From Bradyrhizobium sp. WSM1417 (GTDB taxonomy: Bacteria; Pseudomonadota; Alphaproteobacteria; Rhizobiales; Xanthobacteraceae), in assembly GCF_000515415.1 (NCBI RefSeq), contig NZ_KI911783.1:5691831-5755830 (forward strand): a DNA stretch of 64,000 bases, written 5' to 3'. The notes under the pieces are model-generated. The model was not told the origin of the DNA and ran no database searches. It was given only the letters and a program-made list of their open reading frames with translations. Positions 998-17,103 of the stretch are shown in pieces; within the stretch, counting starts at the first letter, position 1, and every line of letters starts with the position of its first letter. The translations under genes were made by a program, and so were the position numbers.

Positions 998-1609
998 TCA
1001 AGAGGCCGGATATTCCGCGCGACCGATGATGAGGTCGATCGCGGCCATCATCCAGAACTGATGCGTGGTCTCGACGATGTTGTAGCTGCGGCTGTCGACG
1101 TAATAATTGACGTCGCCGAGATAGCGCAGCGGATTCTCCGCGTTCATGCCCGACAGCGTGATCACATCGAGCTTCGTCGTCCGCGCCTGCGCGACCGCAT
1201 TGAGAATGTTCTTCGAACGTCCCGACGAGCTGATTGCGACGAGGCAATCGCCGGCGCGTGCGTTCAGCCTCACAGCATGCGCAAGCCAGTCCTCGAAACC
1301 GTAGTCATTGGCGAGGCACGACATCATGCTGGCATCGCTGAAGCAGAGTGCGGGCACCGCTGCGTTCTTCGCCAGATCGATTGCGAGATGGGAGGCGATG
1401 CCGGCCGAGCCTCCATTGCCGATGAAGATGACGCGGCCGCCCTGCTCGCGCGCGCGCAACCAGACCGTGCGGGTGGCGGAAATCCTGGCGAAAACCCCAT
1501 CGTCAATTGCCGTCGCACGGTGGAGGCGCCCTACGTAGTCGTCAAGGAAAGCCTTGTGATCGGGATCGACGGACTCGGCAGGCATGGGCACGCGGCTCGA
1601 CGGCGACAT
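998..1609 (-). CDS. SIS-domain sugar-phosphate isomerase, GmhA-like
   Basis: A 203-residue SIS-domain protein, the usual size for sedoheptulose-7-phosphate isomerases. The phosphosugar loop FIGNGGSAGIASH and the downstream AISSSGRSKN serine loop are both present. GmhA converts sedoheptulose 7-phosphate to D-glycero-heptose 7-phosphate in the cytoplasm. I chose the ATG at 1609 because AGGA sits five bases upstream; the frame stays open to a GTG at 1696 but that has no ribosome site. It diverges from the epimerase at 1747 and precedes the C-methyltransferase at 921. Heptose isomerase is the best guess from the motif and the kinase/nucleotidyltransferase nearby; other SIS sugar isomerases cannot be excluded. 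Confidence 0.8.
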   Translation of the reverse strand: MSPSSRVPMPAESVDPDHKAFLDDYVGRLHRATAIDDGVFARISATRTVWLRAREQGGRVIFIGNGGSAGIASHLAIDLAKNAAVPALCFSDASMMSCLANDYGFEDWLAHAVRLNARAGDCLVAISSSGRSKNILNAVAQARTTKLDVITLSGMNAENPLRYLGDVNYYVDSRSYNIVETTHQFWMMAAIDLIIGRAEYPAS

Positions 1610-1746
1610 GACGTCCTGATACCGGCTATCACCAGCGATTGCAAAGGTATATTGCCTTCGAAGCCGACTAGCAGCCGATTCGGTTTCCACCTTCACTCAA
1701 CATTGGCGGGCCTGTTTCGCTGGGCATTCGCATCACGGATGTTCCT

Positions 1747-2742
1747 ATGAAATGCATCGTTACCGGTGGCGCCGGCTTCATCGGCAGTCACCTCGTCGAC
1801 CGCCTCCTCGACGACGGCCACGAGGTCGTCGCGCTCGACAATTTCGTGATCGGACGCCCCGAAAATCTGGCCTCGCGCGTCGATTCTGATCGACTGAAGA
1901 TCGTGCGGGCAGACGTCACCGAACGCGAATCGATCAAGCCGCATTTCGACGGCATCGACTGGGTATTCCATCTCGCAGCGCTGGCCGACATCGTTCCCTC
2001 GATCGAGTCCCCGATCCCGTATCACCGCGCCAACGTCGACGGTACGGTCAACGTTCTCGAGGCTGCACGGCAGGCCGGCGTCAGCCGCTTCGTTTATGCC
2101 GCGTCGTCCTCCTGCTACGGAATTCCCGACGTCTATCCGACGCCGGAGAGCGCCGAGATTCGGCCGATGTATCCCTATGCCCTCACCAAGAATCTCGGCG
2201 AGCAGTGCGTCATGCACTGGTGCCAAGTCTACAAGCTGCCCGCGGTGGCGCTGCGCCTGTTCAACGTGTACGGGCCGCGCCATCGCACCACGGGCACCTA
2301 TGGCGCCGTGTTCGGCGTGTTCATGGCGCAGAAGCTCGCCGGCAAGCCCTTCACGGTGGTCGGCGACGGCGAACAGACCCGCGACTTCACCTTCGTCAGC
2401 GATGTCGCCGACGCTTTCGTGACGGCCGCGCGCTCCGAGGTCTCCAACGAGATTTTCAACGTCGGCTCCGACAACACCTACAGTGTCAACCAGCTGGTCG
2501 AGCTCCTCGGCGGCGACAAGGTCCACATTCCCAAGCGTCCCGGCGAGCCCGATTGCACCTATGCCGACATCACCAAGATCAAGCGGATCCTGAAATGGAC
2601 GCCGAAGGTAAAATTTGAGGACGGGGTCGCGACGATGCTGAAGTCGATGGATCAGTATAAGGACGCCCCCCTGTGGACGGTGGACAAGATCGCGGACGCC
2701 ACGAAGGACTGGTTCAAATATCTGGGAGACAACAACGACTAG
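1747..2742 (+). CDS. NAD-dependent nucleotide-sugar epimerase/dehydratase
   Basis: An extended SDR of 331 residues. The Rossmann motif TGGAGFIGSH is at 6-15, the catalytic YxxxK is Y144/K148 (YALTK), and the serine cluster is near 120-122. Closest in appearance to UDP-hexose 4-epimerases and NDP-heptose/dTDP-sugar dehydratases. It is the first plus-strand gene of the sugar cluster, starting about 140 bases from the divergent SIS gene. About 115 bases separate it from the HldE-like gene. The exact substrate is not readable from the sequence. Confidence 0.88.
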   Translation: MKCIVTGGAGFIGSHLVDRLLDDGHEVVALDNFVIGRPENLASRVDSDRLKIVRADVTERESIKPHFDGIDWVFHLAALADIVPSIESPIPYHRANVDGTVNVLEAARQAGVSRFVYAASSSCYGIPDVYPTPESAEIRPMYPYALTKNLGEQCVMHWCQVYKLPAVALRLFNVYGPRHRTTGTYGAVFGVFMAQKLAGKPFTVVGDGEQTRDFTFVSDVADAFVTAARSEVSNEIFNVGSDNTYSVNQLVELLGGDKVHIPKRPGEPDCTYADITKIKRILKWTPKVKFEDGVATMLKSMDQYKDAPLWTVDKIADATKDWFKYLGDNND

Positions 2743-2858
2743 GCGTCCGGCGCGCCGCAGAAGGCAAGCCTGTGAACAGGTTCGCCGGGTATCGTTGCGG
2801 CGAATCGATCAATTCCGGACCGCCCGGCTGAGGCCGGCCGGCGCTTTGGGTTATTCAC

Positions 2859-4430
2859 ATGGGCAATATTTCGAACGACACTCCCGCGTTGAACGACCAA
2901 CTGGCGGCGCACGAAAAGATCAAGACAATCGAGGAATTGGGCGAGATCGCGCGGTCCGCGCAAGCGCGGGGCCGGAAGGTTGCACTCTGCCACGGCGTCT
3001 TCGACCTCGTGCATCTCGGCCATATCAGGCACATCCAGGCGGCGCGCAACGAGGGCGACGTCGTCATGGTGACGATCACCGCCGACCGTTACGTCAACAA
3101 GGGACCGGGGCGGCCGATCTTCCCCGAAAACATGCGGGCCGAGATGCTGGCTTCGCTCGCGACGGTCGATTGGGTCGGCATCAACCACACCTCCAGCGCC
3201 GAGCCGATCCTGGATACTGTGCGGCCGGACATCTATGTGAAGGGGTCCGACTACGAAAACCCCGAAGACGACGTAACCGGCAAGATCCGGAGCGAGCGCG
3301 ACGCCGTCGAGTGTCACGGCGGACGCATCGTGTTCACGCGCGACGTGACATTCAGCTCCTCATCGCTGGTGAACCGGTATTTCGACATCTACGATCCTCC
3401 ACTCCGCGACTACCTGCAAAAAGTCCGTGAAGGCGGCGGCGCCGACCGCCTGCTGGAGCTGATCGACAAGGTGCAGGACATGCACGTCGTCCTGGTCGGC
3501 GACACCATCATCGACGAATACCAGTACGTCACGGCGCTCGGAAAGGCCTCGAAGGAAAACATCGTCGCCACGCTGTTCAAGAACGGCGAGCATTTTGCCG
3601 GCGGCGTCATTGCCGCGGCGAACCATGTCGCGAGCTTCTGCAAGTCGGTGGAGGTCGTCACGACGCTGGGTGGCAACGACTACCCTGAAGAGTTCATTCG
3701 TGCGCATGTCCGCCCGAACGTCACGTTGACGCCGATCCGCCTTCAGGGCCGTCCGACGACCCGCAAATCGCGGTACGTCGAGCTGGGATATTTGCACAAG
3801 CTCTTCGAAGTCTACACCATGGACGATACGCCGCTCGACGAGGCCGATCGGAAGGAGATCGACCGCATCACGACGGAGCGCGTGCGTGGCGCGGACGTGG
3901 TGATCGCCACCGATTTCGGTCACGGCATGATCGCGTCGAGCACGATCGACGCCCTGATCGTCAACTCCAAGTTCCTGGCGGTCAATGCCCAGAGCAACAG
4001 CGGCAATCACGGCTACAACCTGATCACGCGGTATCCGCGGGCCGACTACATCTGCATCGACGCGCCGGAGGCGCGCCTGGCTGCAACCGACAAGTTCAGC
4101 GACATCGCGTCCGTGATCGAGGCCGGCCTGCATGGCAAGATCGACTGCGACAACATGATCATCACGCATGGCTCCTTCGGCTGCTACCCCTTCTCGTCAA
4201 AAACCGGCGTCACGCGCGTTCCCGCCTTCACCAAGACCGTCGTCGACACCGTCGGCGCGGGGGACGCCTTCCTGACGATCACGGCGCCGCTGGTCGCCGC
4301 CGGCGGCAATATCGAGGACGTCGCCTTCATCGGCAACGCGGCCGGCGCGATCAAGGTCGGGATCGTCGGCCACCGCAGCTCGGTCGAAAAAGTGCCGCTG
4401 GTCAAGTTCGTCACCGCGTTGCTGAAGTAG
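2859..4430 (+). CDS. HldE-like bifunctional protein, nucleotidyltransferase then PfkB kinase (reversed order)
   Basis: A 523-residue protein with two domains. Residues ~38-185 are a cytidylyltransferase-fold domain with the HxGH motif (HLGH, 52-55) and a later VKGSDYE segment like the VKGGDY of HldE/RfaE. Residues ~215-523 are a PfkB sugar kinase with an FAGG segment and the ATP/anion-hole signature DTVGAGD at 463-469, whose last Asp is the catalytic base. In Escherichia coli HldE the kinase comes first and the nucleotidyltransferase second; here the order is swapped. HldE phosphorylates heptose 7-phosphate at C1 and later adenylylates it. In this cluster it likely activates a heptose-like sugar. 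Which nucleotide it uses is unknown. Confidence 0.88.
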   Translation: MGNISNDTPALNDQLAAHEKIKTIEELGEIARSAQARGRKVALCHGVFDLVHLGHIRHIQAARNEGDVVMVTITADRYVNKGPGRPIFPENMRAEMLASLATVDWVGINHTSSAEPILDTVRPDIYVKGSDYENPEDDVTGKIRSERDAVECHGGRIVFTRDVTFSSSSLVNRYFDIYDPPLRDYLQKVREGGGADRLLELIDKVQDMHVVLVGDTIIDEYQYVTALGKASKENIVATLFKNGEHFAGGVIAAANHVASFCKSVEVVTTLGGNDYPEEFIRAHVRPNVTLTPIRLQGRPTTRKSRYVELGYLHKLFEVYTMDDTPLDEADRKEIDRITTERVRGADVVIATDFGHGMIASSTIDALIVNSKFLAVNAQSNSGNHGYNLITRYPRADYICIDAPEARLAATDKFSDIASVIEAGLHGKIDCDNMIITHGSFGCYPFSSKTGVTRVPAFTKTVVDTVGAGDAFLTITAPLVAAGGNIEDVAFIGNAAGAIKVGIVGHRSSVEKVPLVKFVTALLK

Positions 4431-4458
4431 CGCGACCGGCAGATACTGGAGAACGACA

Positions 4459-5460
4459 GTGATTGGTCAAAAATGGAACGTGATGGTCACCGGTGGTGCC
4501 GGCTATGTCGGCAGCGTGCTGGTTCCCCAGTTGCTCGCTGCGGGCCACAAGGTCACCGTGCTCGACCTGTTCATGTATGGCGAGGACGTGTTTGATGGCG
4601 TCCGCAACAATCCCGATTTGCGCCTGGTCAAGGGCGACATCCGTGACGAAGCCGCGATCAACGAGGCCCTGCGCGGCAACAACGCCGTGATCCATCTCGC
4701 CTGCATCTCCAACGACCCGTCGTTCGAGCTGGACCCGGGGCTCGGCAAGTCCATCAATTACGACTGCTTCCGGCCGATGGTGCGCGCCGCCAAGAAGGCA
4801 GGCATCAAGCGCTTCATCTATGCCTCCTCGTCCAGCGTCTACGGCATCAAGGACGAAGTCGAGGTGACCGAGGACCTGTGCTGCGAGCCGCTCACGGACT
4901 ACTCGAAGTTCAAGGCGATGTGCGAGACCGACCTTGCCGACGAGGCCGCGTCCGGTTTCGTCACCTGCACGGTTCGTCCCGCCACCGTCTGCGGCTACGC
5001 ACCGCGGCAGCGGCTCGACGTCGTCGTCAACATCCTGACAAATCTCGCGGTCAACACCGGCCGCATCCGCGTGTTCGGCGGAACGCAGCGCCGGCCCAAT
5101 TTGCACATCGAGGACATGTCCGCGGCCTATCTGTTCCTGCTCCAGCAGGATGACGCAAAGATCGACGGCAAGACTTACAATATCGGCTACGAGAACCACT
5201 CGCTGATGAAGATCGCCGACATCGTCAAGTCGGTGGTCGGCAGCAATGTCGACGTCGTCGTTGAGCCGACCGACGATCTCCGCTCCTACCACGTCTCTTC
5301 GGAGAAGATCCGGCGCGAGCTCGGCTTTGCGCCGTCCCACACGATCGAGCAGGCCGTGTCCGGTCTCGTTGACGCTTTCAAGGCCGGCCACCTGCCGAAC
5401 TCGCTCAACGACCCCCGGTACTTCAACATCAAGATGATGCAGAACATCAGCCTGAAGTGA
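4459..5460 (+). CDS. NAD-dependent sugar epimerase/dehydratase (second copy)
   Basis: An extended SDR of 333 residues starting at GTG 4459, with GGAG seven bases upstream. The Rossmann motif TGGAGYVGS is at 11-19 and the catalytic pair is Y148/K152 (YSKFK). It resembles the heptose epimerase/UDP-glucose epimerase branch and is only distantly similar to the gene at 1747, so the two probably act at different steps. Its stop codon overlaps the GTG start of the HAD gene (GTGA), indicating translational coupling. Confidence 0.87.
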   Translation: MIGQKWNVMVTGGAGYVGSVLVPQLLAAGHKVTVLDLFMYGEDVFDGVRNNPDLRLVKGDIRDEAAINEALRGNNAVIHLACISNDPSFELDPGLGKSINYDCFRPMVRAAKKAGIKRFIYASSSSVYGIKDEVEVTEDLCCEPLTDYSKFKAMCETDLADEAASGFVTCTVRPATVCGYAPRQRLDVVVNILTNLAVNTGRIRVFGGTQRRPNLHIEDMSAAYLFLLQQDDAKIDGKTYNIGYENHSLMKIADIVKSVVGSNVDVVVEPTDDLRSYHVSSEKIRRELGFAPSHTIEQAVSGLVDAFKAGHLPNSLNDPRYFNIKMMQNISLK

Positions 5461-6077
5461 GCGGCGTGCGGATCGGCATCGATTTCGACAACACGATCAT
5501 CTGCTACGACAAGGTCTTTGCGGCCGTCGCACGTGAGCGTGGGCTGATGCCGGAAGGGTGGGAGGGGCTGAAGACCGACCTACGGGATCATCTCCGGTCC
5601 CGCGCGGGCGGCGAGCTCGCCTGGCAAGGACTGCAAGGCTTCGTCTACGGCAAGGGAATTGGCAGCGCCGAAATCTATTCGGGGGTGCGGGAATTCCTGG
5701 CGGCGTGCAAGCAGGCCGGCTCTAAAGTCTCCATCATCAGCCACAAGACCCGATTCGGTCATCAGGACCCCGATCGCACGGACCTGCGTGACGCCGCGCG
5801 CAGCTGGCTGCGGGGAGCCGGCCTGGTCGACGCTGCGGATGCGACGCTGGCCATCGGCGACGTCTATTTCGAGGACACACTGGCCGCCAAGGTCGAGAGG
5901 CTCGTGAGCCTGAAGCTCGACGTCTTCATCGACGACCTCGTCGACGTCTTCGAGCAACCACATTTTCCGAAGGCCACGCGATCGATCCTGTTCACGACGT
6001 CGCAGCCTCTCCACCCCGAACACTGCAAGCCGATCGCGACATGGGCCGATATCCGCCGCGAGGTGTTTGCGGCATGA
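5457..6077 (+). CDS. HAD-superfamily phosphatase
   Basis: A 206-residue protein opening with the HAD motif I DFDNT (D9, D11, T13); an acidic VFIDDLVDVF near residue 160 fits motif IV. The start GTG overlaps the previous stop. In heptose activation a HAD phosphatase (GmhB) removes the C7 phosphate from the 1,7-bisphosphate between the two HldE steps. This protein is not a close GmhB homologue by eye, so the role rests on its position in the operon. It could instead act on another sugar phosphate. Confidence 0.8.
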   Translation: MSGVRIGIDFDNTIICYDKVFAAVARERGLMPEGWEGLKTDLRDHLRSRAGGELAWQGLQGFVYGKGIGSAEIYSGVREFLAACKQAGSKVSIISHKTRFGHQDPDRTDLRDAARSWLRGAGLVDAADATLAIGDVYFEDTLAAKVERLVSLKLDVFIDDLVDVFEQPHFPKATRSILFTTSQPLHPEHCKPIATWADIRREVFAA

Positions 6078-7102
6078 GCGAGACCGACATCACCGCGCCG
6101 GATGCGATGGCGATCGGCAGCCGCCTGGCCGGTGCGCGTGTCGCATCCGCCCAGCCGGCACGGTCCGGCGGCAACAACAGGGTGTTTCGGCTGGAGATGG
6201 CAGAGGGACCGCCCCTCGCCCTCAAACATTATCCGTCCGACGGACGCGATCGCCTAGGACAGGAGTATGATGCACTCTCGTTCCTGGCGCGCCACGGCAT
6301 CACGTCGACACCGCGGCCAGTCGCGAAGGACGCAGATGCGTTCTGCGCGCTGTACCAGTGGTTCGACGGCGAGGCCGCGGTGCTGCGCCCCCAAGGCGAC
6401 GATGCCGATCAGCTCGCCGATTTCCTCATCGATCTGCAGAAGCTGCGCGAGGCCGAAGGCGCGCAGACTTTGCGCAACGCCTCAGCGAGCATCTTTTCGC
6501 CCGAGGCGGCCATCGCCCAGTACGAGCGGCGCCTGGACGCACTGAGGCGGGCCTCGGATGATCATCCCGACCTGCGCGCGTTCATGGAAGGCAGCTTGGT
6601 CCCCAGCATTGACGTCGCGATTCGGCAGCTCCGCCGGCACTACGCGGAACTGGGTCGGCATCCCGCAGCGGACCTTGCACCCACCCATCGCGCGCTGAGT
6701 CCGTCCGATTTCGGACTGCACAACGCACTGCGCGCCGAAGACGGGCGCTTGCGATTCATCGACTTCGAATATTTCGGCTGGGACGATCCGGTCAAGCTCG
6801 TGTCCGACACTGCCATTCACCCCGGTAGCGATCTGCCCGAGGCGAGCGCGAATCACTTGATTGAACGGTTGTCGCGCGCCTTCGAGGCGAACGATGACGC
6901 GTTTGCGATCCGACGTGACGTACTTTATCCTGTGTTAAAGGGAATCTGGTGCCTGATTGTCCTGAACGCCTATTTGCCGGACAGCCGCTCCCGGCGCGCA
7001 ATGGCTGCGCAAGGTGGCGATGTTAGGATCCGCCTCGCCGGTCAGCTCGACAAAGCCCGCCGGCTTCACCAGACGATTCGCCCAACCGATTTACCGAAGT
7101 GA
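6074..7102 (+). CDS. APH-fold phosphotransferase (small-molecule kinase)
   Basis: 342 residues from the ATG at 6074, which overlaps the HAD stop (ATGA). The catalytic loop is SPSDFGLHN and the metal-binding DFEYFGWDDP follows; both fit the aminoglycoside/choline kinase fold, with the usual HGD changed to PSD but the Asp and Asn kept. Such kinases phosphorylate sugars, choline or ethanolamine-like alcohols. In this operon it may phosphorylate a sugar or a decorating alcohol. The in-frame extension to 6041 overlaps the HAD gene and is not favoured. Confidence 0.8.
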   Translation: MSETDITAPDAMAIGSRLAGARVASAQPARSGGNNRVFRLEMAEGPPLALKHYPSDGRDRLGQEYDALSFLARHGITSTPRPVAKDADAFCALYQWFDGEAAVLRPQGDDADQLADFLIDLQKLREAEGAQTLRNASASIFSPEAAIAQYERRLDALRRASDDHPDLRAFMEGSLVPSIDVAIRQLRRHYAELGRHPAADLAPTHRALSPSDFGLHNALRAEDGRLRFIDFEYFGWDDPVKLVSDTAIHPGSDLPEASANHLIERLSRAFEANDDAFAIRRDVLYPVLKGIWCLIVLNAYLPDSRSRRAMAAQGGDVRIRLAGQLDKARRLHQTIRPTDLPK

Positions 7103-7947
7103 CCCAGATCTCACCGCACGCTGAAGCCGCTCTCACCTGCACGCTTGACGAGCGCAGCCTTTATCTGCGCCGCCTGGTGCTCGGTTCTGTCCGCTCCGCG
7201 GGACGCGGACATGTCGGTCCGGCATTGTCGCTGATCGAGATGGTCCGCGTGCTCTACGATGACGTGCTGCGGATCGATCCGAACAACCCGCGCGATCCGG
7301 CCCGCGACCGCGCGATCCTCAGCAAGGGACACGGGTGTCTTGCACTCTATGCGCTGTTGGCCGATCGCGGCTTCTTTCCGCTGTCGGAGCTGGACGGTTT
7401 CTGCGGCCCCGACAGCATTTTGGGCGGACATCCCGAATACGGAATGGTGCCGGGGGTCGAGGCCTCGACCGGCGCGCTCGGACACGGCCTGTCGATCGGT
7501 GTCGGCCTCGCGCTCGCCGCGCGCATGCGCGGGCGCAGCTACCGCACCTTCGTCCTGCTCGGCGACGGCGAGATCAACGAGGGATCGGTGTGGGAAGCCG
7601 CCATGGGCGCGGCCAAGCACGGGCTCGACAATCTGGTCGCGCTGATCGACTACAACAAGCTGCAGAGCTACGGCCCCACCGATTACGTCCTGCCGCTAGA
7701 GCCGCTCGCGGACAAATGGCGCAGCTTCGGCTTTGCCGTCCAGGAGCTCAACGGCCACGACATCGCCGCCCTGCGCAGCGTCCTGAAGCAGGTCCCAGCC
7801 GTTCCGGGAAGACCCACCGCGATCATTTGCCATACCGTCAAGGGCAAGGGTCTGCCGGCCGCGGAATCCAACGCCGATTGGCATCACAAGAACAAGCTCA
7901 CCGACAGTGAGCTCGACGCCGTCCGCGTCGCCGTCGGGGATTTTTGA
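7099..7947 (+). CDS. Transketolase, N-terminal (TPP-binding) subunit
   Basis: 282 residues, the length of the N-terminal half of split transketolases. The thiamine-diphosphate motif GDGEINEGSVWEAA with the later DYNK is intact, and SKGHGCLALYALL matches the family's early active-site segment. The GTG start overlaps the kinase stop (GTGA). The partner subunit follows immediately. Transketolases move a two-carbon ketol unit between sugar phosphates. In a sugar cluster this can supply ketoheptose phosphate or build a branched sugar; the choice is not decided by sequence. Confidence 0.9.
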   Translation: MTQISPHAEAALTCTLDERSLYLRRLVLGSVRSAGRGHVGPALSLIEMVRVLYDDVLRIDPNNPRDPARDRAILSKGHGCLALYALLADRGFFPLSELDGFCGPDSILGGHPEYGMVPGVEASTGALGHGLSIGVGLALAARMRGRSYRTFVLLGDGEINEGSVWEAAMGAAKHGLDNLVALIDYNKLQSYGPTDYVLPLEPLADKWRSFGFAVQELNGHDIAALRSVLKQVPAVPGRPTAIICHTVKGKGLPAAESNADWHHKNKLTDSELDAVRVAVGDF

Positions 7948-7957
7948 TCGGGTCCTC

Positions 7958-8917
7958 ATGCGCAACACCGCGATGAACATGGTCCACAAGCTCGCCGCGC
8001 GCGACGAGCGTGTGCTCTACATCGGCTCCGATCCCGGCGCAGGTACCTTGCGCGCGATGAGCAAGGATTTTCCGAAGCGCCATCTGATCGAAGGCATTTC
8101 GGAAGCACACATCATCGGCATGTCGGCCGGTCTCGCGATGGAAGGCTTCGTACCCTATGTCAACACCATCGCCACATTCCTCACCCGCCGCTGCTACGAG
8201 CAGGTCGCCGTCGATCTGTGCCTGCACAATCTGCCGGTGCGGCTGATCGCCAATGGCGGCGGGCTGGTCTACGCGCCGCTCGGCCCCACCCACCAGGCGA
8301 TCGAGGACATCGCCATCATGCGGGCGCTGCCGAACATGACGGTGGTCTGCCCGTGCGACGCCGACGAGGCGGCGCGGCTGATGGAGCAAACGCTCGACTG
8401 GACCGGGCCGATCTACATCCGGCTCGGCAAAGGTGGCGACGCCGTGGTCTCGAAGGCCGAGCACGGCTTTGAGATCGGCAAGGCCATCCTGATGCGGCCG
8501 CCCGGCGACGTCGTCATGGTCACGACAGGCATCATGCTCCAGCGCGCACTCGCTGCGGCCGACCTGCTGGCAGCGCAAGGCATTCGCGCCGGCATCCTGC
8601 ACATGCACACCGTCAAGCCGCTCGACACCGAGGCGCTGCTGCAAGCGATCCGGGGCACCAGGCTGGTAGCGACGCTGGAGGAGCACGTGCCCTCCGGCGG
8701 CCTTGGCAGCGCGGTCGCGGAGGCGCTGATCGACAAGCTCGGCTCTGGCCTGCCCGCGATGCTGCGGTTGTCGCTGCCGGACCGGTTCATGCACAATTAC
8801 GGATCGCAGGATTCGCTGCTCAAGAAGCACGGACTTTCCGCCGACGCCATTGCGACCTCGATCGCGCGCGCGCTCCCCGCCTCGCACACCTCCTCTCCGC
8901 AACTTCATTCCACCTGA
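7958..8917 (+). CDS. Transketolase, C-terminal (PYR) subunit
   Basis: 320 residues from the ATG at 7958, ten bases after the stop of the N-terminal subunit. It has the pyrimidine-binding domain, with the conserved glutamate in EGISEAHIIGMSAGLA, then the transketolase C-terminal domain. Together the two subunits give a complete transketolase/DXS-like enzyme. The frame stays open to 7907 in overlap with the upstream gene, but the ATG gives the expected N-terminus (RNTAMNMVHKLA). Confidence 0.9.
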   Translation: MRNTAMNMVHKLAARDERVLYIGSDPGAGTLRAMSKDFPKRHLIEGISEAHIIGMSAGLAMEGFVPYVNTIATFLTRRCYEQVAVDLCLHNLPVRLIANGGGLVYAPLGPTHQAIEDIAIMRALPNMTVVCPCDADEAARLMEQTLDWTGPIYIRLGKGGDAVVSKAEHGFEIGKAILMRPPGDVVMVTTGIMLQRALAAADLLAAQGIRAGILHMHTVKPLDTEALLQAIRGTRLVATLEEHVPSGGLGSAVAEALIDKLGSGLPAMLRLSLPDRFMHNYGSQDSLLKKHGLSADAIATSIARALPASHTSSPQLHST

Positions 8918-8925
8918 CGGCCCCC

Positions 8926-10032
8926 ATGCACGACGTTCGATATTCCTATCTGCTCGAGCAATTCTCCGACCCGGCACCGATCCTGGCCGAGATCGGCCGA
9001 CTGGTGGCGACCGGTGACTTCACCCTGGGCAAGCCGGTCGCCGAATTCGAACGGCGCTTTGCCGAGCTGATTGGCGTGCGTCACGCCATCGGCGTCGGAT
9101 CGGGCACCGATGCGCTCAAGCTGCCGCTCAAGGCGCTCGGCATCGGCCATGGCGACGAGGTCATCACGGCCGCCAACACCTTCATCGCCACGGTCGGCGC
9201 CATCGCCGAGACCGGCGCGATGCCGGTGCTGGTCGACTGCGACGACTCCTTCTGCATGAACGTCGACTACGTCGAAGCCGCGATCACCGAGAAGACCAAG
9301 GCGATCATGCCGGTTCAGTTGACCGGCGAGGTCACCGACATGGGCAAGCTGATGGCGATCGCCCAGCGTCACAACATCCCCGTCGTCGAGGATTCCTGCC
9401 AGGGCATCCTGTCGGAGTTCGCGGGAAAACGGTCCGGCACCCACGGTATCGCTGCCGGCTTCTCCCTGCATCCGCTCAAGAACCTCAACGTCTGGGGCGA
9501 TGCCGGTGTCGTCGTCACCAATGACGACGGGATGAACGAGCGGCTTCGCCTGATCCGCAACCACGGCATGAAGAACCGCGACGAGATCGCGATCCTCGGC
9601 TGCAATTCGCGGCTCGATTCCCTCCAGGCGGTCGTCGGCAACTGGCTGATCGGCCAGACCAGCGAGATCACGCGCCGTCGGATCGAAAACGCGGCCTTTT
9701 ACGATTCGGGCCTTGCCGGCCTGCCCGGCCTGCGCATTCCGCCGCGCCGGCCCAACGTGAAGCACGTCTATCACCTCTACATGGTGTTCGCCGAGCGTCG
9801 GGACGAGCTCTACAAATACTGCCTGGACAACGGCATTGAAGCGAAGATCCACTATCCCATCCCGCTGTACCAGCAGGAAGGCCTCAGGCACCTCGGCTAC
9901 GCGCCGGGCACCTTCCCGGTCACCGACCGCCATGCCCGGGAAGTCATCAGCTTCCCGGTCGACCAGCATCTGACGCGCGCTCAGCAGGACCGCGTCATCG
10001 AGATCGTTCGGACGTTCTGCCATGGACGCTGA
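8926..10032 (+). CDS. DegT/DnrJ/EryC1/StrS-family PLP enzyme (sugar aminotransferase)
   Basis: 368 residues of the sugar aminotransferase family (fold type I). SGTDAL near 59-64 binds the PLP phosphate, EDSCQG near 155-160 supplies the ring-nitrogen Asp, and the Schiff-base lysine is K185 in HPLKNLN. These enzymes transaminate NDP-keto sugars using glutamate, or dehydrate them when a His replaces the Lys; here the Lys is present, so aminotransfer is expected. It is the first of two consecutive family members; the next gene begins inside its 3' end. Confidence 0.9.
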   Translation: MHDVRYSYLLEQFSDPAPILAEIGRLVATGDFTLGKPVAEFERRFAELIGVRHAIGVGSGTDALKLPLKALGIGHGDEVITAANTFIATVGAIAETGAMPVLVDCDDSFCMNVDYVEAAITEKTKAIMPVQLTGEVTDMGKLMAIAQRHNIPVVEDSCQGILSEFAGKRSGTHGIAAGFSLHPLKNLNVWGDAGVVVTNDDGMNERLRLIRNHGMKNRDEIAILGCNSRLDSLQAVVGNWLIGQTSEITRRRIENAAFYDSGLAGLPGLRIPPRRPNVKHVYHLYMVFAERRDELYKYCLDNGIEAKIHYPIPLYQQEGLRHLGYAPGTFPVTDRHAREVISFPVDQHLTRAQQDRVIEIVRTFCHGR

Positions 10033-11140
10033 CACCGGCCGCCGGCGCATCGGTTACGTCAATCTTCCCGCGCAATTTGATGAAGAGCGCGTTGAGATCA
10101 TGCAGGCGGTCGAGGGCGTGTTCCGGCGCGGCGATTTCATCGGCGGCGCGGCCGTTGCGAAGCTCGAAGAGGAGCTCACCACCTATCTCGGCTCGCCGCA
10201 TGTGGTGACGCTGAATTCCGGCACCGATGCGCTGATCCTGTCCTTGCGGGCACTCAACATCGGTCCGGGGGACGAGGTGATCACCCCGCCGAATTCGTTC
10301 GTGGCATCGAGCGCCGCCATCATCGCCGTCGGCGCCGCGCCAGTATTTGCGGACGTGCTGCCGGACCAGAATATCGATCCCGCCGCGGTCGAGGCCGCCG
10401 TCACCTCGCGGACCAGGGCGATCATGCCGGTGCACCTGACCGGGCGCATGGCCGACATGAACCCGCTGATGGCGATCGCGGCCAAGCACGCTCTCGCCGT
10501 GATCGAGGACAGCGCGCAGGCGGTCGGCTCGACCTATGACGGGCGGATGAGCGGGACCATCGGAACGTTCGGCTGCTTCTCCGCCCACCCGCTGAAGAAC
10601 CTCAATGCCGCGGGCGACGCCGGCTTCGTCGTCACCGCCGACGCCGAGCTTGCCGCGAGAATTCGCCGCCTGCGCAATCACGGTCTGATCAATCGCAGTG
10701 ACGTTCAGGAATGGGGCATCGTGTCACGCCTCGACACGGTCCAGGCCGAGGTGCTCCGGATTCGCTTGCGTCACCTGCCCTCTGTCATCGAACGTCGGCG
10801 CCGCAACGCCGCGCAATACCGCGCCGAGCTCGCCGGCCTTCCCCTGTTCATCCCGGTTTGCCGCAACATCGAGTTCAACACCTTCCACACCTTCGTCGTG
10901 CAGACGGACCGTCGCGACGACTTCCAGAAATATCTTGCCGACAAGGGCATCGAGACCGCGATCCACTATCCGGTACCGATCCACCTCCAGGAGGCGGCGG
11001 CGCATCTGGGTCACGGTCGCGGCGCCTTCCCGGTGACCGAGCGGCAGGCGGATCAGATCCTCACGCTCCCCATCAACCAGTTCCTCTCGACCTCGGACAT
11101 CAGCTATGTTTGCGCCACCGCCCGGGAGTATTTTGCATGA
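10022..11140 (+). CDS. Second DegT/DnrJ/EryC1/StrS-family aminotransferase
   Basis: 372 residues, overlapping the previous gene by 11 bases. It has SGTDAL (67-72), EDSAQAVGS and K192 in HPLKNLN. It aligns with its neighbour throughout but differs at many positions, so it is an older duplication rather than a recent copy. Two aminotransferases imply either two amino groups on one sugar, two amino sugars, or a heteromeric enzyme. Its stop overlaps the ATG of the oxygenase gene (ATGA). Confidence 0.9.
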   Translation: MDADTGRRRIGYVNLPAQFDEERVEIMQAVEGVFRRGDFIGGAAVAKLEEELTTYLGSPHVVTLNSGTDALILSLRALNIGPGDEVITPPNSFVASSAAIIAVGAAPVFADVLPDQNIDPAAVEAAVTSRTRAIMPVHLTGRMADMNPLMAIAAKHALAVIEDSAQAVGSTYDGRMSGTIGTFGCFSAHPLKNLNAAGDAGFVVTADAELAARIRRLRNHGLINRSDVQEWGIVSRLDTVQAEVLRIRLRHLPSVIERRRRNAAQYRAELAGLPLFIPVCRNIEFNTFHTFVVQTDRRDDFQKYLADKGIETAIHYPVPIHLQEAAAHLGHGRGAFPVTERQADQILTLPINQFLSTSDISYVCATAREYFA

Positions 11141-11943
11141 CGGACACGGCTTTCCTCGAGGCCGATGAGCAGGCATTGGCGCAACGCTTCATCGACGACG
11201 GCTTCGTCACCACGCCGGCCGACGATCGCGCCGGGCTCGACCGGATCCAGCGGCGCGCCGCCGAGCTCGCGGCGAACTATCTGAAGCTGCCACACGGCAA
11301 CGACCCCTACGCGATGCTCGACACCATCCACACGCGGGTGAGCGTGGATGATCTCAACGGCCTGCGGCTGCACGTCTTCAACGGCCTCAATGACGAGCCC
11401 TGGTTCCGTCCGACCTATTTCCGTCTGGCGCGCTCGACGATCGAGACCATCGTCGGCAACGAGCTCTGCATGCAGCGCCGCGTCAATCTCAGCATCCAGC
11501 TGCCGGGCGACGATTCGTCACTGCTCGCCACCCATTCCGACGTCTGGTCGGGCGACTCGCCGTTCGAGGTCGTTGTGTGGGTACCGCTGGTCGACGTCCA
11601 CCGCACCAAATCGATGTATCTGCTGCCGCCGTCCCTGAACGGCGAGATGCAGGACCGGATGGCCAGCCTGCGCAGCGCCGAAGAACTCTACCAGACCATC
11701 AAGCCGCACGCGACGTTCATCGAGATTCCCTACGGTCACGTGATGCTGTTCAACCAGACCCTGATGCACGGCAATCGCATCAACGAGGAAGCCGGCTCGC
11801 GCTGGAGCATGAACTGCCGCTTCAAGAGCATCATGTCGCCCTATGCGGACAAGCGATTCGGCGAATTCTTCGAACCGATCCTGCTGCGTCCGGCGACACG
11901 CGTCGGCATGCAATACAAGCTCCCGGGAGGCTTCCATGGCTGA
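11137..11943 (+). CDS. Sporadic carbohydrate cluster 2OG-Fe(II) oxygenase
   Basis: 268 residues from ATG 11137, preceded by GGGAG and overlapping the upstream stop. The iron-binding facial triad is visible as H133-S-D135 (THSDVW) and H211 (LMHGNR), with an arginine about ten residues later (R222) for 2-oxoglutarate. This matches, from memory, the family defined as the 2OG-Fe(II) oxygenase of 'sporadic carbohydrate clusters'. It probably hydroxylates or oxidises a sugar intermediate in the cytoplasm. The next gene is the family's usual partner, which strengthens the call. Confidence 0.78.
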   Translation: MTDTAFLEADEQALAQRFIDDGFVTTPADDRAGLDRIQRRAAELAANYLKLPHGNDPYAMLDTIHTRVSVDDLNGLRLHVFNGLNDEPWFRPTYFRLARSTIETIVGNELCMQRRVNLSIQLPGDDSSLLATHSDVWSGDSPFEVVVWVPLVDVHRTKSMYLLPPSLNGEMQDRMASLRSAEELYQTIKPHATFIEIPYGHVMLFNQTLMHGNRINEEAGSRWSMNCRFKSIMSPYADKRFGEFFEPILLRPATRVGMQYKLPGGFHG

Positions 11944-12328: not shown

Positions 12329-12353
12329 CGATGCCGCGGACCGATTGAGGACA

Positions 12354-13019
12354 ATGACCGAGATCAACCTGCTCCAGCCGATGCACGCATCGACCAAGCG
12401 GAACTACGTTCAGCGGGTCGTCGAGCACGACAAGGCGGAAACTGCCACCGTCGCGCGGCAATGGGGCCACGACTACTGGGACGGCGATCGCCGTTATGGC
12501 TATGGCGGCTACCGCTACGACGGACGGTGGCGGCCGCTCGCCCAGACCTTGATCGACCGCTATGGCATCAAGCCCGGGATGAGCGTGCTCGATGTCGGCT
12601 GCGGCAAGGGCTATCTGCTCTACGAATTCGCGCAGCTCGTCCCCGGCCTCACCATCGCCGGCATCGACATCTCCGACTATGGCATCGCCAACGCCAAGGA
12701 GGAGGTGCGGCCGCAATTGAAGGTCGGCAGCGCCGTCGAGCTCCCCTACCCCGACCACAGCTTCGATCTCGTGGTGTCGCTCGGCGTGCTCCACAATCTT
12801 CCCCTCGAGGACGTCTTCCGAGCAGTGTCGGAGATCGAGCGCGTGGGGCGCGGCGCCTCGAAATATCTGATGGTGGAATCGTTCCGCGACGAGCGCGAGA
12901 AGGCGAACCTGCTCTACTGGCAGCTCACCTGCCTGAGTTTCCATGGTCCGGAGACGTGGGCCTGGATTTACGACAAATGCGGCTACCGGGGCGACCATGG
13001 GTTCATCTTCTTCGAATGA
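12354..13019 (+). CDS. Class I SAM-dependent methyltransferase
   Basis: 221 residues from ATG 12354, 25 bases after the previous stop. The SAM motif VLDVGCGKGYLL is at 78-89, the acidic motif II is GIDISDYGI, and SLGVLHNL is the usual post-II segment. Likely an O- or N-methyltransferase acting on a sugar of the cluster; it lacks the zinc ribbon of the C-methyltransferases. The frame upstream to 12234 overlaps the LIC12192 gene and was not used. Confidence 0.83.
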   Translation: MTEINLLQPMHASTKRNYVQRVVEHDKAETATVARQWGHDYWDGDRRYGYGGYRYDGRWRPLAQTLIDRYGIKPGMSVLDVGCGKGYLLYEFAQLVPGLTIAGIDISDYGIANAKEEVRPQLKVGSAVELPYPDHSFDLVVSLGVLHNLPLEDVFRAVSEIERVGRGASKYLMVESFRDEREKANLLYWQLTCLSFHGPETWAWIYDKCGYRGDHGFIFFE

Positions 13020-13614
13020 AGCAACGGGCCTGCGCCGGCCGTCCTCGCTACGTGCGCAAAATCCCGAAGTGTATTATTCGGACGACGCCATCGTCACGGC
13101 GGACGATGCCACGATCGCGGAGCTGAAGCGCATCGCCGCAGGCAATCCGCGTCTGCGCAGCCGGCTGTGCACCCATCCCGATCCCTCGTCCGGCCTGCAC
13201 GAGATGCTGATCGTGCATCATCGCGAGGCCTATGTGCGGCCTCACAAGCACTTTGGCAAACCTGAATCGTTTCACCTGATCGAGGGCACAGCGCAAGTCG
13301 TGATCTTCGAGGACGACGGCCGCATTCGCGACGTGCTCGAGATGGCGCCGTACGGGCAGGGCAAGCGCTGCTATTACCGGATGCCCGAGCAGGTGTTTCA
13401 CTCGATCCTGATCACCTCGGAGTGGCTGGTGTTTCACGAAACTACCGCCGGTCCGTTCGATCCCTCCCGCACGGTGTTTCCCGACTGGGCGCCGGATGGC
13501 GGCGATGCCGCGGAAGTGCAGGTCTATGTCACTAGGACCGGTGCGCTCGCCGCGGAGCATCTGGCCCATCGCCATGCTTCACGAGCCATTCCAGCAGAGG
13601 TTCCTATTCGATGA
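12997..13614 (+). CDS. Cupin-fold metalloprotein, WbuC-like
   Basis: 205 residues from ATG 12997, overlapping the methyltransferase by 23 bases. The cupin metal motif is RPHKHFGKPESFHLIEG (H83, H85, E90, H93), with a later EQVFHS histidine. WbuC-family proteins sit in O-antigen clusters of enteric bacteria and elsewhere; their reaction is not established. The first ~20 residues are poorly conserved-looking, so a later non-ATG start is possible. Confidence 0.75.
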   Translation: MGSSSSNEATGLRRPSSLRAQNPEVYYSDDAIVTADDATIAELKRIAAGNPRLRSRLCTHPDPSSGLHEMLIVHHREAYVRPHKHFGKPESFHLIEGTAQVVIFEDDGRIRDVLEMAPYGQGKRCYYRMPEQVFHSILITSEWLVFHETTAGPFDPSRTVFPDWAPDGGDAAEVQVYVTRTGALAAEHLAHRHASRAIPAEVPIR

Positions 13615-14828
13615 CTGATCATTGCCGCCTCTGCCACTCGACCCATTTGCGCACGGTCATCGACCTCGGACAGATGCCGATTGCGCATCGGCTTCGGCAC
13701 AGCCGCGACGAACAGGAGGAACGGTATCCGTTCGAGGTGCTGGCTTGTGGCGAGTGCGGCCTGCCCCAGATCGTCAAGCCGATCGATCCTGACATTCTGT
13801 ACCGGCAGTTCAACTACAATTTCAGCAGCTGGAAGCCGGAGCCGCACCAGGTCGACGAACTCGATACCATCGCCAAATTCTCGGCCCACCAATCCGTGTT
13901 CGAGATCGGATGCAACGATGGCCTGTTCATGGACAGGCTTCGCGAGCGCGGTGCGAAGGTTTTGGTGGGCGTCGAGCCCAACCCGGTGTCGGGCAAGATC
14001 GCCCGCGAACGCGGCATCAAGGTCTATGCCGACATGATCAGCCCGGCGCTGTGTCACGACGCGGTCGCGGAGGCCGGCAAGTTCGACCTCGTCGTCTCGC
14101 GACAGGTGCTGGAGCACATCGTCGATTTCGAGAACTTTTTCGACTGCGTGAAAATCGCGCTGCGCGACGACGGTCTGCTGTTCATCGACGTGCCTGATTT
14201 CGCACCCGGCTCGACGGCGGGCGACCTCTCGGTCCTGTGGGAGGAGCACGTCAGCTACTTCACTGAGCCGACGCTGCTCGCGTTGCTGGCGCGCCACGGC
14301 TTCGAGGCGGTCTCGGTGAAGAAATACAATTTCAGCGGCGGCAGCCTCGCGATCGCAGCGCGACGCGCCGCGAACGACGTGACGGCCCCACCCGCGCCGT
14401 CCGGCGTCGGCGAGAGATTCGGCCAGCGCGCAAGGGAGTATGGCGCGCGTCTTCGCCCGATCCTCGCCAAGGCCCGCGCCAACGGCGCCGAGATCGCCAT
14501 CTACGGCGCGGGCTGCCGCGCCTGCACCTTCACCAATGCCCATGAACTCGCGGATCTCGTCGACCTCTCGGTCGACGACCAGCAGGAGCGCCAGGGCTTG
14601 TTCCTGCCCGGCACCGGCATTCCGATCCGTTCCCCGAAGGACCTCGCCGGCAAGTCGGGTCCGCTCGTCTGTCTTCTGGCCGTAAACCAGGAGAACGAAG
14701 ACAAGGTCAGCAGCCGGCTGCGCCAAAACGTGAAGCGTCCGCTCCACATCGTTTCGATCTTCGCGCCCTCCGACATCTGGAGCGAGCTCGATCGCCTCGA
14801 GGCCGCCGCAGGGTCGCGGCATGGCTGA
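13611..14828 (+). CDS. Zinc-binding sugar C-methyltransferase
   Basis: 405 residues with the full three-part architecture of the TylCIII/NovU family. The zinc ribbon is C5/C8 (CRLC) and C46/C49 (CGEC), the SAM motif is VFEIGCNDG, the catalytic-region segment is EEHVSYF, and the C-terminal domain carries AIYGAGCRA. Known members methylate carbon 3 of an NDP-4-keto-deoxy sugar. It overlaps the cupin gene by four bases (ATGA). This is the second member of the family in the cluster. Confidence 0.87.
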   Translation: MTDHCRLCHSTHLRTVIDLGQMPIAHRLRHSRDEQEERYPFEVLACGECGLPQIVKPIDPDILYRQFNYNFSSWKPEPHQVDELDTIAKFSAHQSVFEIGCNDGLFMDRLRERGAKVLVGVEPNPVSGKIARERGIKVYADMISPALCHDAVAEAGKFDLVVSRQVLEHIVDFENFFDCVKIALRDDGLLFIDVPDFAPGSTAGDLSVLWEEHVSYFTEPTLLALLARHGFEAVSVKKYNFSGGSLAIAARRAANDVTAPPAPSGVGERFGQRAREYGARLRPILAKARANGAEIAIYGAGCRACTFTNAHELADLVDLSVDDQQERQGLFLPGTGIPIRSPKDLAGKSGPLVCLLAVNQENEDKVSSRLRQNVKRPLHIVSIFAPSDIWSELDRLEAAAGSRHG

Positions 14829-16026
14829 GGACAAGCTCTTCAACTATTACGAACGTCAGGACGTCCTGCCGACGTTCGGTAATTTCAAATCCGCAGCCGA
14901 ACTCGAAAGCTATGCCGGCCTGCGGCGCGAGTTGTTTTCGGACAAGCTGGTGCTGCCGCCGCGGTTGTTCCGCGACGCAGACGTGCTCGAATTCGGCCCT
15001 GATTCCGGCGAGAACGCGCTGGTGTTCGCCGGCTGGGGCGCGAACATGACGCTCGCCGAGCCGAACCGGCATGCGCACGCGAAAATCCAGGCTTACTTCG
15101 CGCATTTCAGCCAGGCCCAACGTCTCCGCGAACTCGTATCGTTCGATGTCGAAGGATTTCACAGCGATCGTCGTTTCGACATCATCGATGCAGAAGGATT
15201 CATCTACACGGTGCAGCCGACCGAAAATTGGCTCGGCATCTTTCACCGGCTGCTCAATCCGGACAGTTACGCCGTCGTTTCCTACTACGAGCGCTACGGC
15301 GGCTTTTTCGAGCTCGCGCTCAAGGCGATTCATGCGGCCGGCAAGGCACTGACGGGCCGTCCCGGACTCGAAACGGCGAAGATGCTGTTCGATGCGAAAT
15401 GGAACAGCATTCCGCACACGCGCAGCTTCGAATCCTGGCTGATGGACGTGCTCGAAAATCCTTTCGTCCGGCACCGCTACTTCCTCGACGCGGGCGCCTT
15501 GTGCACGGCGGCGCACGAGCAGGGATTCGATATCCATTCGGCTTGGCCCGCTTATCGCGACAGCCTGGACGTCTACTGGCACAAGAAGGTCCTGTCCGGC
15601 GACGAGAAGCTGCGGCGCGCGACGCGCCACCTCGGCCGCAGCCGTCTGAGCTTTCTCGGCGGACGGAAGCTCTATCTGGCCGGCAAGACCGAAGCGGTCG
15701 ACGCGATTTCGGCTTCGATCGAGAAACTGGTTCTCGATGTCGATGCGATGATCGACGATCCCTTCGGCGACAGCCTGCCCCGTGCGATCGCGAGCCTCGC
15801 GTCACTGCGCGAGACGATTCCGGCGACAGAAATTCTCGCCGACGATGCGTCCGACATCGACGCCATCATGGCGACCCTCGATAGTTTCCATCGCATCTTT
15901 GGCGCGATCGGGCGACGGGATGCGTCCACAGTCACCACCCTCACCCAGTCAGACCAGGCGTTCATCAACACCTGGGGACAGCCGGCGCATTTCCTCGTTC
16001 TCCGGAAACGCTTCGAGGGGTGCTAG
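14821..16026 (+). CDS. Class I methyltransferase-like protein with long C-terminal region
   Basis: 401 residues overlapping the previous gene by eight bases. Residues ~50-180 look like a SAM-binding Rossmann domain (VLEFGPDSGENALVFA, then DIIDAEGFIY in place of the usual post-II motif). The C-terminal half, ~residues 200-400, is mostly helical-looking and not recognised. The motif I glycine pattern is a little degenerate, so the enzyme may be divergent. Its position implies a role in sugar modification. Confidence 0.7.
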   Translation: MAEDKLFNYYERQDVLPTFGNFKSAAELESYAGLRRELFSDKLVLPPRLFRDADVLEFGPDSGENALVFAGWGANMTLAEPNRHAHAKIQAYFAHFSQAQRLRELVSFDVEGFHSDRRFDIIDAEGFIYTVQPTENWLGIFHRLLNPDSYAVVSYYERYGGFFELALKAIHAAGKALTGRPGLETAKMLFDAKWNSIPHTRSFESWLMDVLENPFVRHRYFLDAGALCTAAHEQGFDIHSAWPAYRDSLDVYWHKKVLSGDEKLRRATRHLGRSRLSFLGGRKLYLAGKTEAVDAISASIEKLVLDVDAMIDDPFGDSLPRAIASLASLRETIPATEILADDASDIDAIMATLDSFHRIFGAIGRRDASTVTTLTQSDQAFINTWGQPAHFLVLRKRFEGC

Positions 16027-16029
16027 CAA

Positions 16030-17103
16030 GTGAGGCCAGGCATTGGCATCATCGGGACGGGCATGGTCGGTCAGATGTGCCACCTCGCCAATTTCGTCGC
16101 TAACCCCGGCTGCCGCGTTGTCGCGATCGCCGATCTGCGGCTTGATCTCGCCGCCGCAGCGGCGCAAAAATTTGACATCGCGCGGGTCTACCGCACGCAC
16201 CGGGAACTGCTGGCGGACAGCGAGGTGTCGGCCGTCGTCGTCGTGACGAAGCGTCGCGCCACCGGTCCGATCGTGCTGGATGCGTTGAACAGCGGCCGCC
16301 ATGTGCTGTCGGAAAAGCCGATGGCCTACACCACGGCTCAGGCCGTTTCACTGGCCGAGGCGGCGCGACGGCAAGACCTCGTCTACAGCATCGGCTACAT
16401 GAAGCGTCACGACGCCGGAGTGGCGCGCGCGATTGCCGAGTTGGCGTGCCTGCGAGCGGATCAGTCGCTTGGACGCATTGTCGGCGCGCGAGGCTGGTGC
16501 TTCGGTGGCAGCACTGGCCGGTCGCAGGACAATTTCGTCATGACCGGCGAAGTGCGACCGGACGGGCTCGAGCTCTGGCAGGACGGCCCCGACTGGATGC
16601 CGGGCGCGATGCGACCCGGCTACGACAATTTTCTGAACGTGTTCAGCCATATCATCAATCTCGCGCGCTACGTGCTCGGATCGTCACCGACAGTTGCGGA
16701 AAGCGCCGTCGAGACCTCGGGCACGGCGACCGTGACACTCGACTTCGACGGCGTCGCCTGCGCGCTGCAACTCGCGAATGGATCCGAAGGCGTCTGGCGC
16801 GAGGGGCTGAGCATCGAATTCGAGCGGGGCACGCTGACCATCGAATTGCCCCCGCCTTTTGCCGAGCAGGAGGCGGAGGTCATCCTCGATCAGCAAGGAC
16901 AACGCACGCAATTGCGGCGCGACACGAGCTGGGCGTTTCGGCGTCAAGCCGATGCATTCGTCGCCGATATCGTGGAACAGAGAACGCCGCTGGCTTCCGG
17001 CGCAGATTCCGTGGCCGATATCGCCCTTGCGGAGGCGATCTGGAAGCGCGGGTCAGTTGCTAGGTTTCACGCCATCCGGCGGCAATATCCGGGCGAGTAC
17101 TGA
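16030..17103 (+). CDS. Gfo/Idh/MocA-family NAD(P)-dependent oxidoreductase
   Basis: 357 residues from GTG 16030, three bases after the previous stop. The N-terminal Rossmann motif GIIGTGMVG and the signature EKPMAYT are present, followed by the C-terminal alpha/beta substrate domain. Family members oxidise a sugar hydroxyl, often at C3 of UDP-hexuronates before transamination by a DegT enzyme, which fits the two aminotransferases upstream. It is the last gene of the plus-strand run. Confidence 0.87.
   Translation: MRPGIGIIGTGMVGQMCHLANFVANPGCRVVAIADLRLDLAAAAAQKFDIARVYRTHRELLADSEVSAVVVVTKRRATGPIVLDALNSGRHVLSEKPMAYTTAQAVSLAEAARRQDLVYSIGYMKRHDAGVARAIAELACLRADQSLGRIVGARGWCFGGSTGRSQDNFVMTGEVRPDGLELWQDGPDWMPGAMRPGYDNFLNVFSHIINLARYVLGSSPTVAESAVETSGTATVTLDFDGVACALQLANGSEGVWREGLSIEFERGTLTIELPPPFAEQEAEVILDQQGQRTQLRRDTSWAFRRQADAFVADIVEQRTPLASGADSVADIALAEAIWKRGSVARFHAIRRQYPGEY

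Follow-up and report, generated by a model that had tools for sequence, protein, structure and literature searches.

Gene content of the cluster

The window analysed here is a 64,000-nucleotide stretch of the genome of Bradyrhizobium sp. WSM1417, a soil bacterium belonging to the nitrogen-fixing rhizobia (NCBI RefSeq assembly GCF_000515415.1, contig NZ_KI911783.1, forward-strand positions 5,691,831 to 5,755,830), which is a single contig of 8.05 Mb. It contained a carbohydrate gene block of about 18 genes, bounded on the left by a partial C-methyltransferase gene and on the right by a Gfo/Idh dehydrogenase gene, which ends at position 17103 (Table 1). The partial gene extended about 350 bases past the left end of the window, and its 3' end was seen in the upstream stretch (L030). 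Two products, g11 and g12, whose genes overlapped at 11936–11943, matched the NCBIfam "sporadic carbohydrate cluster" markers TIGR04324 and TIGR04323, respectively, both far above the cut-offs. An unusual activated sugar is the most likely product of the block. This reading was preferred because the kinase/nucleotidyltransferase, SDRs, aminotransferases, and methyltransferases were conserved together in Bradyrhizobium.

A preliminary description of the window had listed a SIS isomerase, an HldE-like protein, SDRs, a HAD phosphatase, a transketolase, and a 2-oxoglutarate (2OG) oxygenase. NCBIfam and Pfam models recovered all of these types in their places, together with the two aminotransferases and several methyltransferases of the same description. 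The genes mostly formed one run, with the SIS gene and the partial methyltransferase gene on the opposite strand. The transketolase was of the expected type, but the region 7099–8917 held two genes, for an N-terminal and a C-terminal half, rather than one. The genes for the APH-type kinase, the TIGR04323 protein, the WbuC cupin, and the Gfo/Idh dehydrogenase had been overlooked.

Table 1. Genes of the block and its right border, with window positions and supporting matches.
Gene	Product	Position	Strand	Evidence
g00	Zn-type C-methyltransferase, 5' part only	1..945	-	PF08421, PF13489, PF08484
g01	SIS-domain sugar-phosphate isomerase-like, GmhA-like	998..1609	-	TIGR00441 87 bits (cut-off 209.45); zinc-ligand changes
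g02	SDR NDP-sugar epimerase/dehydratase, GalE/LegB models nearest	1747..2742	+	PF01370 210.8 bits
g03	Nucleotidyltransferase–PfkB kinase fusion	2859..4430	+	TIGR02199 at residues 30–173, TIGR02198 at residues 203–505, both below cut-off
g04	SDR NDP-sugar epimerase	4459..5460	+	PF01370 139.5 bits; TIGR01179 122 bits, below cut-off
g05	HAD phosphatase	5457..6077	+	DxD, SHK, DD motifs conserved in 18 sequences; weak TIGR01489
g06	APH-type kinase, frame open from 6041	6074..7102	+	PF01636 49.5 bits
g07	Transketolase N half, thiamine-diphosphate domain	7099..7947	+	PF00456 171.1 bits; nearest solved chain 6yak
g08	Transketolase C half, frame open from 7907	7958..8917	+	PF02779, PF02780; 6yaj; alignment and motif count
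g09	DegT/DnrJ/EryC1 aminotransferase	8926..10032	+	PF01041 338.8 bits
g10	Second DegT/DnrJ/EryC1 aminotransferase	10022..11140	+	PF01041 353.2 bits
g11	2OG-Fe(II) oxygenase, sporadic carbohydrate cluster	11137..11943	+	TIGR04324 339 bits (cut-off 150)
g12	LIC12192-family sporadic carbohydrate cluster protein, 130 residues	11936..12328	+	TIGR04323 167.7 bits (cut-off 55)
g13	S-adenosylmethionine (SAM) methyltransferase, core set	12354..13019	+	PF08241 69.8 bits; 36/36 outgroup loci
g14	WbuC-family cupin	12997..13614	+	TIGR04366 134.2 bits (cut-off 42)
g15	Zn-type C-methyltransferase	13611..14828	+	PF08421, PF13489, PF08484
g16	SAM methyltransferase	14821..16026	+	PF13489 73.6 bits
g17	Gfo/Idh/MocA dehydrogenase	16030..17103	+	PF01408 79.4 bits
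	tRNA-Trp, right border of block	17138..17213	-	ARAGORN
NDP, nucleoside diphosphate.

Distribution and modular organization

Related loci were obtained by scanning named genomes with a TIGR04324 alignment, and the best 80 of 230 relatives were used. They comprised 44 Bradyrhizobium-type loci, 42 of them under Bradyrhizobium titles and two (L078 and L089) under other titles, and 36 outgroup loci, mostly alphaproteobacterial by title, of which several were incomplete stretches. The g11 gene was present in every locus by construction, as the scan was made with its family. Records with the cluster among these best 80 of 230 were titled Bradyrhizobium, Azospirillum, Magnetospirillum, Skermanella, and SAR116. 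The distribution of TIGR04323 was sporadic: 26 of 149 relatives had it, of which 25, the genome studied here included, belonged to the genus. It was also found in 7 of 398 genomes sampled across the phylum, and neither survey detected it in any of 14 control genomes. A scan of a viral collection gave one contig (IMGVR_UViG_3300027357_000030; L021 1001–1390) with a TIGR04323 protein 94% identical to g12, which is either misassigned bacterial DNA or cargo.

Each of g01–g14 was present in 43–44 of the 44 Bradyrhizobium-type loci, g16 in 42, and g15 and g17 in 40, and the order of g01–g14 was identical in all 16 Bradyrhizobium loci compared for gene order, which points to more than a chance grouping. 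Among the 36 outgroup loci, the core genes were frequent: g12 and g13 were found in all, g08 in 28, g07 and g03 in 26, g06 in 24, g05 in 23, g04 in 22, and g01 and g02 in 16. The accessory genes were rare, with g10 and g14 in six loci, g15, g16, and g00 in four, g09 in three, and g17 in two. The Bradyrhizobium form differs from the sporadic carbohydrate cluster elsewhere by the addition of two aminotransferases and C-methyltransferases, and g09 and g10 looked like an add-on to the core.

These counts would also suit two side-by-side pathways, one for a core activated sugar and the other for a DegT-made amino-deoxy or C-methyl sugar (g09, g10, and g14–g17), with the locus alone in common. The presence of other genes between g14 and g15 in relatives is consistent with this division. 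However, g09–g14 were contiguous in all 16 Bradyrhizobium loci, and g09 and g10 also stood between the transketolase and the 2OG oxygenase in L093 and L118. Two pathways were thus regarded as a tenable reading with the balance tilted somewhat against it. The genes between g14 and g15 in Bradyrhizobium relatives included large membrane-like proteins that were absent here (L033 14492–16780, L036 17093–19273, and L031 2706–4634); none of three scanned matched NCBIfam and neither of two scanned matched Pfam.

The genes for the HAD phosphatase, the APH kinase, and both transketolase halves tended to co-occur across loci. Only one plasmid record, from Solidesulfovibrio carbinolicus, matched g08 at an E value of 1e-60; it carried a HAD–APH kinase–transketolase–methyltransferase run with identities of 37, 36, 64 and 52, and 49%, respectively, and the motif YAPLGPTH. 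No HldE-like, SIS, 2OG, or TIGR04323 gene was found within the 31 kb examined around it. The opposite case was seen in L092, L110, and L125, which contained the HldE-like gene together with the 2OG oxygenase, TIGR04323, and methyltransferase genes, and no HAD, APH kinase, or transketolase gene within the stretches examined; a SIS gene was present in L092 but not in L110 or L125. Since the HAD–kinase–transketolase and HldE-like modules occur apart, the five heptose-type enzymes do not form one obligate set.

The neighbours of these modules also bear on whether the cluster serves protein glycosylation, for example of flagellin, instead of a polysaccharide. The Solidesulfovibrio run stood with pseB, pseC, pseF, and an MptE-like gene (as annotated), and a UDP-GlcNAc 4,6-dehydratase-like gene was read by eye in the Nitrospirillum locus L125. 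A TPR protein family was present in 4 of 36 outgroup loci, and the one member scanned has a GT41 domain. The absence of any recognised transporter or polymerase from the block in the window points the same way. However, the stretches inspected showed no recognisable flagellar gene within or next to the Bradyrhizobium block, and the LPG_synthase_TM proteins of relatives could suggest lipid-linked use. Those proteins, together with large unmatched membrane proteins, lay in the block of relatives. A role in protein glycosylation was considered rather doubtful.

Other genes were seen in some of the outgroup loci. A radical SAM protein of 354 residues was encoded in 9 of 36 outgroup loci (L127 11220–12284; one member scanned), and a B12-binding radical SAM protein at L122 14474–16300. 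In the SAR116 locus L111, a DAHP-synthase-family gene (PF00793; 7102–8010) stood between the kinase and transketolase genes.

SIS protein and the heptose genes of the genome

The enzyme types of the block fit a heptose pathway, in which the transketolase would make sedoheptulose 7-phosphate, the SIS protein would isomerise it, the fusion protein and the HAD phosphatase would give an NDP-heptose, and the other enzymes would aminate and methylate the product. The cluster shares the SIS, PfkB kinase, nucleotidyltransferase, HAD, and SDR types with the ADP-heptose pathway (GmhA, HldE, GmhB, and HldD), but deviates from it in the zinc ligands, the domain order, the kinase stretch, and the SDR and HAD families.

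The zinc ligands of GmhA are H61, E65, Q175, and H183 in gonococcal numbering, of which E65 and H183 matter for function, according to the available text of PMC5387315. In the alignment, g01 had H, D, E, and M at these positions, so that three of the four were changed, and it lacked about five residues after the E65 equivalent. The M at the H183 equivalent was found in all 16 whole Bradyrhizobium copies. The outgroup SIS copies had the E and the final H in 16 of 16, and the D in the 14 of 16 in which the pattern matched. Because the outgroup copies keep the final H whereas the Bradyrhizobium copies have M, the outgroup proteins may still work as isomerases, with altered specificity, and the Bradyrhizobium protein may be altered further. 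The retained H183 equivalent of the outgroup is a point in favour of heptose chemistry.

A canonical hldE (486 bits, below the cut-off of 521) and hldD (414 bits, above its cut-off) lay about 440 kb from the block, with the heptosyltransferase II gene waaF (231 bits, above its cut-off) beside them (L155 11553–16415; G000:C1:6149553–6154415). No gmhA or gmhB was called beside this waaF, and both followed waaF in other strains (L163, L164, and others). As no other protein of the genome matched GmhA above 25 bits, g01 could feed the ordinary hldE–hldD–waaF pathway in this strain, which would favour the heptose reading. Against this, among 84 genomes of the genus, hldE was present in 81; matches to GmhA exceeded 150 bits in 14 genomes and were lacking altogether in 24. 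These 24 genomes all had hldE and none carried the cluster; therefore, hldE persists without g01.

A Bradyrhizobium gmhA from a waaF–gmhA–gmhB run reached 192.8 bits, also below the GmhA cut-off. Because this gene and the canonical hldE both miss the NCBIfam cut-offs, residues, domain order, and gene neighbourhoods were weighed over scores.

Nucleotidyltransferase–kinase fusion, SDRs, and HAD phosphatase

The protein g03 had been described as an HldE-like kinase/nucleotidyltransferase. Both domains were present, but the architecture was not that of HldE, as the nucleotidyltransferase came first and the kinase second, the reverse of HldE. Its score with the HldE model was 153 bits against the cut-off of 521, and 7627 relatives were found among 7999 scored candidates. 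HldA and HldC exist as separate proteins elsewhere; therefore, the domain order alone does not exclude a heptose function of g03. The kinase domain kept GAGD and read ASKEN where the HldE of the same genome has SPEAP, a stretch that presumably binds the sugar. The outgroup proteins mostly read SPKEN or SAKEN.

The SDR g02 scored 176.2 bits with TIGR01179 and 125.9 bits with TIGR02197, neither of which reached the cut-off, and no HldD equivalent was found among g02 and g04 (125.9 and 64.9 bits against a cut-off of 274.6). No GmhB model of NCBIfam matched the HAD protein g05, which matched only TIGR01489, weakly (E value of 0.001), and had no Pfam match. Its catalytic motifs were kept in all of the aligned sequences (Table 1), and the best E value of its family against solved structures was only 0.026. 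The protein g05 may resemble Campylobacter Cj1435.

The SDRs also bear on bradyrhizose, a sugar with extra carbons, whose O-antigen cluster or a relative of it the block might represent. This sugar comes from the same genus, and its biosynthesis genes are not settled in the available part of PMC4743980. The bradyrhizose operon is an 11-gene run with the dTDP-glucose 4,6-dehydratase gene gdh, with which the block was compared by family score. However, the cluster SDRs scored 155 and 89 bits against the TIGR01181 cut-off of 365 bits, and the block was separated from hldE by the distance given above. No support was found for this identity, which was considered very improbable.

Split transketolase

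The genes g07 and g08 encode a transketolase in two chains, as in the split-gene transketolase of Carboxydothermus (PDB codes 6yak and 6yaj; E values of 1.4e-66 and 6.2e-55, respectively). The Carboxydothermus enzyme retains the GEDG acceptor motif, whereas the cluster enzyme has APLG. In place of the canonical acceptor motif, g08 reads GGGLVYAPLGPTH; the full-length transketolases of the same genome, two of which scored above the cut-off, read THDSIGLGEDGPTH. The motif GGGxVYAPLG[P/A]TH was found in 71 of 72 called C halves, the remaining one being a fragment cut before the motif. All 44 Bradyrhizobium-type loci had it, as did 27 of the 36 outgroup loci; of the other nine, eight were without a C half and one had the fragment. 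The canonical acceptor motif occurred in none of the 80 loci. A second split transketolase stood beside a DegT aminotransferase elsewhere in this genome (G000:C1:6209711–6211176; L156).

Cofactor residues were compared in the window and in 16 outgroup loci with an uncut N half, of 25 joined, using E. coli numbering. The thiamine-diphosphate site, the catalytic histidines, GDG, and the E411 position were kept, and the H461 and D469 positions were changed. R358 was kept and R520 was replaced by K. In the available text of PMC10787763, the D469T variant of E. coli transketolase has a hydrophobic surface favouring non-polar acceptors, and docking places H461, R358, and R520 near the carboxylate of an acidic acceptor.

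The changed GmhA zinc ligands, HldE domain order, SPEAP stretch, and transketolase acceptor residues, together with the separable modules and the lack of a GmhB or HldD equivalent, made the heptose reading unlikely. The canonical route from sedoheptulose 7-phosphate to an NDP-heptose was rejected on the zinc ligands, the reversed domains, the acceptor residues, the separable modules, and the location of the ordinary hldE, hldD, and waaF and of two full-length transketolase genes elsewhere in the genome, while a heptose pathway of another form was kept as a rival reading.

2OG oxygenase and TIGR04323 protein

The HxD motif and the distal H of g11 were invariant in five sequences, and its family had no match among solved structures at an E value of 0.1. 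The protein g12 folds like the catalytic domain of serine recombinases and apparently lacks the nucleophile. It resembled this domain of PhiC31 integrase and gamma-delta resolvase in fold, with a best Foldseek E value of only 0.0024 and no match at 0.001. By sequence, g12 had no significant match among solved structures (best E value of 0.36), and its profile showed no relation to five resolvase domains of the same genome. Because the profile comparison gave a probability of 1.2%, the kinship with recombinases is by fold only. Residue 16, which corresponds to the nucleophile in our own reading of the register, was V, L, I, F, or Y in 33 of 33 sequences and never serine. Furthermore, unlike serine recombinases, g12 leaves no space for a DNA-binding domain in its 130 residues.

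Genomic site

Upstream of the block lay secE, nusG, rpoB, and ribosomal-protein genes; their names were assigned by eye, and secE was found by tblastn at 75% identity. The interval from nusG to tRNA-Trp was 18,074 bases in this strain (G000:C1:5690894–5708968). Among ten cluster-less strains, it was 482–885 bases in six, and the remaining four had intervals of approximately 2.4, 3.4, 4.1, and 16.9 kb; in the longest of these, an integrase-like gene (read by eye) adjoined the tRNA gene. The distance from nusG to g01 was about 2.9–3.0 kb in seven cluster-bearing strains, compared with 1.9 kb here. As its length and content differ between strains, the interval between nusG–secE and tRNA-Trp is a variable site. 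An IS3-type OrfB transposase-like frame (read by eye) was located at 21674–22534 of the window, about 4.6 kb downstream of the cluster.

Proposed pathway

The best explanation, with a probability of roughly 0.55 for the whole, takes the block as the Bradyrhizobium version of the sporadic carbohydrate cluster, lying between nusG–secE and tRNA-Trp. In this view, its products are one or more unusual sugars in nucleotide-activated form, and its split transketolase transfers a two-carbon unit to a non-canonical acceptor. The explanation is based on gene identities, conservation, modularity, and residue changes, all of which were observed directly. In the pathway inferred from them, including all substrates, the two-carbon transfer, and surface use, module A (SIS, nucleotidyltransferase–kinase, and SDRs) would isomerise, phosphorylate, and activate a sugar phosphate. 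Module B (HAD, APH kinase, and split transketolase) would transfer a two-carbon ketol unit to an acceptor other than a normal aldose phosphate, so that the sugar is lengthened or branched, with a phosphate added and then removed en route. Module C (2OG oxygenase, TIGR04323 protein, and methyltransferase) would tailor the product. The aminotransferases, WbuC cupin, C-methyltransferases, and Gfo/Idh dehydrogenase would be additions, mainly in Bradyrhizobium. Of the "new amino/C-methyl/heptose-type sugar for a surface polysaccharide" in the preliminary description, the unusual activated sugar was retained as the likeliest reading and the heptose was dropped, while surface use would follow only by inference.

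Several points weigh against this explanation. R358 is kept and R520 is K; therefore, a phosphorylated acceptor could still be used. The outgroup loci come from the best 80 of 230 matches, and module A was incomplete in many of them, partly because contigs end. In addition, the block of this strain held no recognisable glycosyltransferase, flippase, polymerase, or transporter.

The nearest functional parallel is with the split-gene transketolases of miharamycin and amipurimycin biosynthesis, for which hydroxyacetyl transfer to keto sugars is proposed and unproven in the available text of PMC12247030. Those clusters make antibiotics, and the likeness to g07/g08 is by description, not by sequence. 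A more specific proposal, put forward tentatively and with clearly less than even odds, is that the split transketolase with its rebuilt acceptor site adds two carbons to a keto sugar or another unusual acceptor for a surface glycan, that the nucleophile-less, recombinase-fold TIGR04323 protein serves sugar chemistry instead of DNA, and that the whole is a recurring unstudied pathway.

Implications

Two NCBI models give the cluster type its name, and it recurs in several genera, yet no open-access paper containing "sporadic carbohydrate cluster" or "LIC12192" and no published product were found. Listings of open-access papers on Bradyrhizobium, Leptospira, and Azospirillum glycans held no structure that could be linked to it. 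A heptose label taken from the enzyme names alone would probably be wrong, which serves as a warning. Extension or branching of a keto sugar by the transketolase, if real, would give glycans a counterpart to a reaction that has until now been proposed for two antibiotics. If the recombinase-fold protein does act on sugars, the fold of a DNA enzyme would have been reused in carbohydrate metabolism.

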